Virus record (IMG/VR): IMGVR_UViG_3300001589_007084
Span: 8,808 to 38,048 of that record
Reading direction: 5' to 3' (one strand)
DNA length: 29,241 bases
Source of the DNA: a virus
The notes beneath the pieces were generated by a model. That model ran no database searches. It was given only the letters and a program-made list of their open reading frames with translations, and was not told the origin of the DNA. Both the position numbers and the translations under genes were made by a program. Positions within the stretch are counted from its first letter, which is position 1, and every line of letters begins with the position of its first letter. Below are positions 5,149 through 12,208 of this stretch, one piece after another.

Positions 5149-6077
5149 TTTACACCTTTAATAACTTCAATAACAAAAGCTGCTAAGTTGATTTCTTGAT
5201 TAGTAACAAAAGCAGCTTTATGTTGATAGTCACTCATACAAAGAATTAGAGTTGGTATAGATTCTTCGTTTATATATTCAACAATATTAGTATACAAATC
5301 ATTGAACAATTGATCTGTATCTGGATTGTCAGCAATCCATTGTCTACAAGATTTAAAATCACTTTTCTTCATAAAATTAATTAAAGTTTTTACTTTATTT
5401 GTATTAACAATAGATATTATTCCACTATCAATGTTATTGTTTACTTGACTATATCTCTGCAATTCATTAATAATTCTTCTTGTATCTGGATAGAATCTTT
5501 GAACAATTTCAAGTACACTAGGTTTATTAAACTCTATTCCTTCAAGAGTTAATATCTTAAACATTCTTCTTGCTATGTCAGACATCATTACATGTTTTTC
5601 ATCAGCACCAACACCAAAATCAATAACAGAACATCTTGAATGTAACGGAGCAATAATTTTATGTTTAAAGTTACAAGTTAATATAAATCTACTATTCTTT
5701 GAAAATTCTTCTATAAAATTTCTAAGAGCAGGCTGTACAGCTAAACCAAGATAATCAGCTTCATCAATTATTACTACTTTAGGTTTATCTTTCATTGAAG
5801 TTGTACTAACAAACTTTTTAATCTTATCTCTTAAAACGTCTATAGATCTTCCTTCATCAGAACCATTAACAACTATATAGTCACATCCTAGTTCTTTACA
5901 CAATGCTTTAGCTACAGTAGTCTTACCTGTTCCAGCAGAACCAGAAAATAATAAATTAGTTACTTCGCCTTTATGAATTAAGTTCTCAAAAGTTTTTTTC
6001 AAGTTACTAGGTAAAATTATATCACTTATCTTTTCAGGTCTATACTTTTCAGCCCATATAAATTGTTCAGTTATCAT
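5139..6077 (-). CDS. 44: Clamp loader ATPase, gp44
   Basis: AAA+ ATPase subunit of the sliding-clamp loader. Visible motifs are the N-terminal WAEKYRPEKISDI box, Walker A GSAGTGKTT (residues 46-54, Lys52), Walker B VIIDEAD (102-108) and the SRC motif LHSRC (145-149) with the arginine finger Arg148. The length (312 aa) is close to T4 gp44 (319 aa). The start ATG overlaps a previously easily missed 52-aa gene by 11 nt, and the stop overlaps gp62 by 10 nt. Confidence 0.97.
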   Translation of the reverse strand: MITEQFIWAEKYRPEKISDIILPSNLKKTFENLIHKGEVTNLLFSGSAGTGKTTVAKALCKELGCDYIVVNGSDEGRSIDVLRDKIKKFVSTTSMKDKPKVVIIDEADYLGLAVQPALRNFIEEFSKNSRFILTCNFKHKIIAPLHSRCSVIDFGVGADEKHVMMSDIARRMFKILTLEGIEFNKPSVLEIVQRFYPDTRRIINELQRYSQVNNNIDSGIISIVNTNKVKTLINFMKKSDFKSCRQWIADNPDTDQLFNDLYTNIVEYINEESIPTLILCMSDYQHKAAFVTNQEINLAAFVIEVIKGVKWK

Positions 6078-11335: not shown

Positions 11336-11365
11336 AAAAAAAGGTCCAATTAATTGGACCTTTTT
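11336..11365. terminator. Bidirectional rho-independent terminator
   Basis: The palindrome GGTCCAATTAATTGGACC (11343-11360) is flanked by seven A on one side and five T on the other, so it can end transcription on both strands. On the minus strand it closes the riboswitch-peptide unit 20 nt after the stop codon. Confidence 0.9.
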
Positions 11366-11385: not shown

Positions 11386-11502
11386 CTAAGCAGTTTGTTT
11401 ACATGTGCATTTAGACATTATGCGATAGTTCAGTATTTTATGAACTAAAGCACGTCTACGTGCTTGAACAAACTTATTCCATTGATATGGTCTGTAAGTC
11501 AT
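11386..11502 (-). CDS. Riboswitch-controlled basic peptide, 38 aa
   Basis: ATG at 11502 is preceded by GAGGAGG with 6-7 nt spacing, one of the best ribosome binding sites in the window; the frame ends at TAG 11388-11386. The peptide is strongly basic, with nine Lys/Arg (RRR at 15-17) and no Asp or Glu; residues 8-30 could form a helix (WNKFVQARRRALVHKIL), and the C-terminus has CTC. It follows a glutamine riboswitch, the arrangement that gave the Downstream-peptide RNA motif its name. In cyanobacteria glutamine riboswitches control small basic glutamine synthetase inactivating factors such as IF17; whether this peptide acts likewise is inference. Two hairpins lie in the coding sequence (AGTTCA/TGAACT, 11427-11446; AAGCACG/CGTGCTT, 11448-11465). 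Confidence 0.82.
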   Translation of the reverse strand: MTYRPYQWNKFVQARRRALVHKILNYRIMSKCTCKQTA

Positions 11503-11521
11503 TGCCACCCTCCTCTTTTTA

Positions 11522-11575
11522 AAGTTAGGTGCGTTCCTTCAGCGATTGCCTACTTCCGCCCGTGAGGGTGAACGA
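11522..11575 (-). promoter_or_regulatory. Glutamine-II-type riboswitch (glnA / Downstream-peptide class)
   Basis: The minus strand carries the conserved blocks of this aptamer class: CGTTCACCC (11574-11566), GGGCGGAAGTAGG (11561-11549) and CTGAAGGAACGCACC (11542-11528). P1 forms between CGTTC (11574-11570) and GAACG (11536-11532), and P2 between CCC and GGG around a TCAC loop. AAGTAGG (11555-11549) can pair with CCTAACTT (11529-11522) with one bulged A, fitting the pseudoknot of the Downstream-peptide variant. It begins at the thyX stop and ends about 20 nt before a 38-aa gene. The class binds L-glutamine; the direction of control here is not shown by the sequence. Confidence 0.87.
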
Positions 11576-12208
11576 TTATGTCTTATTTATTAAATATTTC
11601 CACGAAACAGGAGCTATTCTCGACACCTCTTCACCAAAATACTCAGATAGTTTTTGTATTTCAACCTGTGCATGTTCTTCTGTTCTAAGTTTATAAATTC
11701 TAGCAGCTGCTGCTAAAGATCCAGTTTCTATCCATTCTGTCATCATAGATTGAGGAAGAATAGCTCTTGCTTGTTCTGGACATATACCCTTATCTAACAT
11801 CATTTTATAAGTATCTTCTGTATGTCTTATTGTTTCTTGATATGCATAACTTATATCATTATCTGGATAAACTTCAGTTGAAGATCCTTGTTTTTTATTA
11901 TCTGCTGCTAATCTCCACTGATATGGAGACCAAAATTCAGGTGTATCCGATACATATCTTCTACTAGTTTCGTTCCTTGTAATTCCTACCATATGTTTAA
12001 ACCATTGTCTAGCTACAAATATAGGAGCTTTAATTCTTACTTGGTATGTAACTTGTGAAAATGGAGTCCAATGGTCGTGTGTGGCTAAATATCTTAACAA
12101 ACCTTCATCTTTGTCACTAAAATGTTTAACTTCTTTTGCGAATGAAACTCTTGCTGCATTTACAACAGATACATCACCTCCCATACTATCAATCAACGTT
12201 ACGTTCAT
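11576..12208 (-). CDS. thyX: Flavin-dependent thymidylate synthase
   Basis: Makes dTMP from dUMP with methylene-tetrahydrofolate, FAD and NADPH. Family features in the 210-aa protein are HDHWTPFSQVTYQ near residue 44 (counterpart of the HxxPFEH segment), RQWFKHMVGITRNETSRRY (68-85) and the C-terminal EQARAILPQSMMTEW plus LRTEEHAQVEIQ. The classical RHR-X7-S motif is altered: KHM replaces RHR and the spacing to the Ser is one residue longer. I recall this variant from other phage ThyX proteins. The start overlaps the clpP end by 20 nt, and the stop touches the glutamine riboswitch. Confidence 0.95.
   Translation of the reverse strand: MNVTLIDSMGGDVSVVNAARVSFAKEVKHFSDKDEGLLRYLATHDHWTPFSQVTYQVRIKAPIFVARQWFKHMVGITRNETSRRYVSDTPEFWSPYQWRLAADNKKQGSSTEVYPDNDISYAYQETIRHTEDTYKMMLDKGICPEQARAILPQSMMTEWIETGSLAAAARIYKLRTEEHAQVEIQKLSEYFGEEVSRIAPVSWKYLINKT

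Follow-up and report, generated by a model that had tools for sequence, protein, structure and literature searches.

A viral DNA stretch of 29,241 nucleotides (the window) carries a glutamine riboswitch aptamer ahead of an unannotated gene for a small and strongly basic protein, and similar pairs of aptamer and small basic ORF recur in other phages and in the chromosomes of some marine bacteria. It had been predicted that the phage encodes a glutamine riboswitch and that this RNA controls a basic peptide missing from the annotation; the prediction is supported. At the sequence level this support comprises the aptamer, an ORF that appears to be translated, a terminator, a late-promoter motif and a covarying helix predicted to sequester the Shine-Dalgarno (SD) sequence. 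A riboswitch-microprotein cassette with a glutamine-ON switch is highly probable. For the whole explanation, a late glutamine-ON cassette whose microprotein restrains host nitrogen assimilation, we see an even chance.

Glutamine riboswitches are already known in T4-like marine phages, namely the methylophage Melnitz and the pelagiphage Mosig (PMC9004378), and cyanophage glutamine riboswitches are mentioned in two further papers (PMC9964418, PMC9602691). In Melnitz, the tmRNA has been read as riboswitch-controlled, and the riboswitch has been tied to the timing of lysis (PMC9004378). The new part is the unannotated microprotein cassettes; no paper describing them was found in a largely open-access literature that lacked the original report on gifB. 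If our reading is right, many marine phages sense host glutamine by RNA and reply with a tiny protein missed by annotation.

The aptamer and the microprotein gene

The sole Rfam match in the entire window (cmscan) is to the Glutamine aptamer, RF01739, with 56.6 bits (gathering cut-off 35), an E-value of 3.8e-10 and coverage of the full model from 1 to 53. The RNA had been assigned to the glutamine-II class, but that family (RF01704, Downstream-peptide) has no match in the window, and the RNA belongs to the type 1 (glnA) class; the placing of the aptamer and its downstream parts within 11386-11575 was correct. As a predicted aptamer of this class, the window RNA would bind L-glutamine. It is present as a single copy, with no further glutamine aptamer elsewhere in the 38,270-base record, and its first base (11576) is also the final base of the thyX stop codon. 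Glutamine-II riboswitches of marine picocyanobacteria also place a glutamine-sensing RNA ahead of short ORFs, of 17-100 aa (PMC2864571), but form a separate Rfam family.

Table 1. Features of the cassette and its surroundings in the window.
Feature	Position	Strand	Basis or remark
Putative late-promoter motif of T4-like type, AATAAATA, similar to TATAAATA	11584..11591	-	9 nt before first P1 base, within end of thyX
thyX, flavin-dependent thymidylate synthase by reading	11576..12208	-	upstream gene; its position next to the cassette is not conserved
Glutamine (type 1, glnA) riboswitch aptamer	11528..11576	-	RF01739 covariance model
Anti-SD element CACCT, directly 3′ of P1	11527..11531	-	covariation with SD flank
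SD AGGAGGG (11514-11508) and flank	11506..11514	-	AGGAGGG 5 nt before ATG; partner of CACCT is GGGTG (11510-11506)
38-codon gene, basic single-helix microprotein, MTYRP family	11386..11502	-	ORF, homologues and AlphaFold2
Intrinsic terminator AAAAAGGTCCAATTAATTGGACCTTTTT	11338..11365	-	12-bp hairpin and T-run, bidirectional, -17.2 kcal/mol, z -5.8

Conceptual translation confirms the predicted ORF of 38 codons, whose product, MTYRPYQWNKFVQARRRALVHKILNYRIMSKCTCKQTA, has nine Lys/Arg and no acidic residue. An alternative GTG two codons upstream gives a longer frame; the ATG at 11502 is the conserved start, and the strong ribosome binding site expected before it is there (Table 1). The terminator also exists, as a hairpin with a T-run, but lies just outside the interval in which it had been placed; it closes a monocistronic unit.

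IMG/VR was scanned for the start pattern of the peptide alone, with the aptamer forming no part of that pattern. Homologues were found in 44 contigs, and in all 44, as in the window, the aptamer lies directly upstream. Over the first 27 codons of 31 distinct coding sequences of this MTYRP family, pN/pS is 0.36 in frame, compared with 1.05 and 1.27 for the two alternative frames. The constant presence of the aptamer and the purifying selection in frame together indicate that the window ORF is not due to chance. Residues M1, T2, Y3, R4, P5, W8, F11, A14, R15, A18 and R27 are invariant in the family, the first ones having belonged to the search pattern. AlphaFold2 models the peptide as one helix spanning residues 5-34 (mean pLDDT 80), with a low helical hydrophobic moment of 0.10-0.20 and a negative mean hydrophobicity.

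Gene neighbours vary between phages, with thyX upstream solely in the window and in one other contig (L157), and no neighbour is conserved across the family loci: the conserved unit is aptamer plus peptide. Pfam, PHROGs and PDB sequence searches with the window peptide returned no known domain or phage family, and tblastn against 50,697 records gave chance matches alone among named phage isolates. Megablast with 24 kb of the window matched no named phage isolate. A cyanophage host found no support, the psbA/psbD family being absent from 25 partial records, and pelagimyophage-type CsgG was likewise absent. The MTYRP family was found in none of 197 Pelagibacterales or 398 Pseudomonadota chromosomal genomes, in a search where no positive control rang.

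Expression platform and late-promoter motif

The CACCT element can pair with the flank of the SD sequence, and its CA is shared with the conserved 3′ terminus in the aptamer model; because this CA is common to both, the bound and sequestering states should exclude each other. Among 80 distinct phage leaders, 56 form all 5 bp with their own SD partner, compared with 30.4 ± 2.5 when partners are permuted, and the observed mean helix score was reached in none of 2000 permutations, which take no account of relatedness. The pair types seen are CACCT/GGGTG, CACTT/GAGTG, CACTT/AAGTG, CATCT/AGATG and CACTC/GAGTG; at positions 3-5 the type of pair varies through exchanges in both partners. Since the CACCT-type elements covary with the SD flank, a glutamine-ON translational switch is predicted.

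In the window, GAGGGTG at the SD is also able to pair with CACCCTC of the aptamer 5′ strand. In the unconstrained minimum-energy fold of the window leader, pairing covers essentially the whole SD, chiefly through this CACCCTC; when the aptamer is enforced and the CA blocked, the SD is released in part and some of it remains weakly paired, because CCU still pairs weakly. As a general mechanism this second pairing was rejected, being not above chance across leaders (217 of 2000 permutations reach the observed value); it is nevertheless strong in the window leader itself.

The ON direction agrees with known type 1 glutamine switches, in which glutamine binding activates expression (PMC6316151), and the short phage leader copies the layout of the cyanobacterial inactivating factors, which is ON. 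The opposite direction, with the peptide made when glutamine is scarce, is improbable. It gains some weight from the occurrence of the same aptamer before assimilation genes (by reading, glutamine synthetase and amtB) in SAR11-type and SAR86 genomes, where an OFF switch would be expected; the spacers in those host leaders, however, are longer, at about 40-130 nt, and the SD helix is missing there.

In the window a TATAAATA-like motif occupies the fixed upstream place typical of T4-like late genes. Of 156 phage aptamers, 111 have HTAAATA in the 45 nt that precede them (2% expected), and HTAAATA or AATAAATA lies upstream of all 42 testable leaders of the MTYRP family. These motifs suggest a late promoter and late timing of expression.

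Related cassettes in phages and bacteria

A pattern scan of IMG/VR for the aptamer yielded at least 120 loci, five of which were ended by a contig end, leaving 115 complete. Among the complete loci listed, 107 of 115 have a small ORF of 18-81 codons (median 38) that starts 5-45 nt past the aptamer. Each of the 107 products carries a net positive charge; the mean is +6.3, whereas 69 other SD-led small ORFs from these contigs average +0.65 (p 5e-15). The products group into several families that look unrelated to one another, among them YRG peptides of DUF4278 type, one of which matches DUF4278 in Pfam.

The published Melnitz and Mosig loci both fit the pattern of aptamer and small basic ORF. 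In Melnitz, the aptamer (2999-3047 of L161) lies 3′ of ssrA, past the tmRNA at 2574-2991, and 5′ of an unannotated basic ORF of 32 aa, MTLYQQWCYLKAQKEYRRRQKILMYFRIRLKG (MZ577097 46469-46567; L161 3070-3168), at a site where the annotated CDS of the MZ577097 record runs on the opposite strand. The Mosig aptamer precedes a small annotated ORF, Mosig_00116. Like the window, these loci belong to T4-like phages that infect streamlined marine bacteria and carry RF01739 followed by a small basic ORF; they differ in that the window peptide is of another family, and in that the published Melnitz reading is control of the tmRNA, a reading that would change if ours is right. Homologues of the Mosig riboswitch peptide also occur in the pelagiphages HTVC023P (L162), HTVC104P (L163) and HTVC103P (L165), where the stretches covered contain no riboswitch.

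In cyanobacteria, type 1 glutamine riboswitches drive glutamine synthetase inactivating factors (IFs) or DUF4278 proteins (PMC6316151). IF-like and DUF4278 ORFs could be read behind the RF01739 aptamer in cyanobacterial genomes, so the analogy originally drawn to these cassettes is supported, and leaders of the same class there have an equivalent layout, CGCCTC...GAGGCG. With the gifB (IF17) and DUF4278 cassettes the window shares RF01739, a short leader, an SD-sequestering helix directly 3′ of P1 and a small basic product, and in the known cases their riboswitch is an ON switch (PMC6316151). The window peptide also resembles the IFs in being small, Lys/Arg-rich and led by RF01739 (38 aa, 9 K/R, 0 D/E). 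The window cassette differs in having a phage late-promoter motif where theirs is an NtcA-controlled promoter, and in a peptide without IF or DUF4278 similarity. The comparison with inactivating factors gave an hhalign probability of 0.14%, no better than shuffled controls, and homology to IF7 or IF17 was rejected on this and on the Pfam result; nor does Pfam match the peptide to DUF4278 (PF14105) with its YRG motif.

Similar cassettes also sit in bacterial chromosomes. Eight of 17 related marine Pseudomonadota genomes of one family carry a chromosomal microprotein of 35 aa, of the MNLWTQYCRRQAR type (L325-L332), preceded in 8/8 by a tandem glutamine riboswitch. Their leader is typically CACCTAACTTTAAAAAGGAGGGTG, nearly equal to CACCTAACTTTAAAAAGAGGAGGGTG of the window. 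These cassettes thus resemble that of the window in glutamine riboswitch, near-identical leader (CACCTAACTTTAAAAAG) and basic product of about 35 aa, but they have tandem aptamers, sit in chromosomes and are weakly linked in peptide sequence, the profile match between the window peptide and the chromosomal family having an hhalign probability of 12-19%.

GlnE is the adenylyltransferase that normally restrains glutamine synthetase. It is absent from all eight microprotein genomes and present in seven of the nine relatives without the microprotein (Fisher p 0.002, with relatedness of the genomes not taken into account); glutamine synthetase itself is present in 17/17. This is what a microprotein replacing GlnE would predict, in the way that inactivating factors serve in cyanobacteria, although the pattern may reflect a single clade and so could be one evolutionary event. 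If right, the chromosomal microprotein is a candidate answer to how GlnE-less marine bacteria restrain nitrogen assimilation.

A possible function of the microprotein

We propose that a T4-like marine phage carries here a late cassette complete in itself, in which a late promoter would give rise to a short mRNA that begins very close to the aptamer. At low glutamine, CACCT, and in the window phage also the aptamer 5′ strand, would pair with the SD region and block translation. Upon glutamine binding, the aptamer would fold and take up the common CA, the SD would be freed, and the strongly basic single-helix microprotein of 38 aa would be made. Most likely, this would be the phage version of the glutamine-responsive microproteins of GlnE-less marine bacteria, and it would bind and restrain a host nitrogen-assimilation protein, for which glutamine synthetase is the leading candidate. 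A nitrogen-assimilation target falls slightly short of an even chance, and a brake on glutamine synthetase is plausible; the proposed tuning of host nitrogen assimilation gains indirect support from the chromosomal cassettes of GlnE-less bacteria. A phage's reason for restraining glutamine synthetase is not obvious. More tentatively still, and on balance rather doubtfully, glutamine-switched basic microproteins might form a general restraint on glutamine synthetase in GlnE-less marine bacteria, a proteobacterial counterpart of the inactivating factors, with phages carrying late-expressed versions to adjust the nitrogen status of the cells they infect.

The same glutamine-ON cassette could also make a microprotein whose target has nothing to do with nitrogen assimilation and might be the ribosome, RNA polymerase or nucleic acid, with glutamine as a late signal of plentiful amino acids. 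We regard this as a serious possibility, if well below even. The peptide is a very basic single helix, like many phage proteins with targets in the host machinery, and has a late-promoter motif ahead of it; moreover, the peptide family shared by Mosig and the podoviruses HTVC023P, HTVC103P and HTVC104P occurs in the latter without a riboswitch, which means that this family, at least, can work free of control by glutamine. On the other hand, the weakly related chromosomal cassettes are found in genomes without GlnE, and elsewhere this class of aptamer goes with nitrogen genes.

The late-promoter motif and the link to lysis timing made by the Melnitz authors would also suit a membrane-active lysis or lysis-timing factor triggered by rising glutamine. 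Such a role is decidedly unlikely given the low hydrophobic moment and negative mean hydrophobicity of the peptide, and given that similar riboswitch-microprotein cassettes are ordinary chromosomal genes. Very unlikely indeed is that the riboswitch controls something else, be it the upstream thyX or, as published for Melnitz, the tmRNA, and that the ORF is incidental: the aptamer does abut the thyX stop codon in the window and ssrA in Melnitz, but neighbours change while aptamer and peptide stay together in 44/44, the ORF is under purifying selection, and the Melnitz aptamer, too, precedes an unannotated ORF of the same kind.

Several observations concern related genes. In SAR11-like and SAR116 single-cell genomes (L168, L170, L191, L198, L219), tandem glutamine riboswitches stand before glnA and amtB by reading, the N-terminus of one such gene being confirmed as Gln-synt_N; this is contrary to one review, which calls the type 1 class restricted to cyanobacteria. 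Glutamine synthetase of the microprotein-family genomes (L334-L341) retains the tyrosine that is usually adenylylated, with a flank reading DQDLYTM.PEE or similar, the familiar flank being DKNLYDLPPEE. Homologues of a second phage microprotein family, of GTSGY type and about 64 aa (L313-L324), occur in 115 of 197 Pelagibacterales genomes, and a stricter RF01739 search found a match in just 2 of them. Finally, the riboswitch peptide of one phage locus (L033, about 5460-5670) combines a YRG segment resembling DUF4278 with a basic helical one, and in this build it is reminiscent of IF17.
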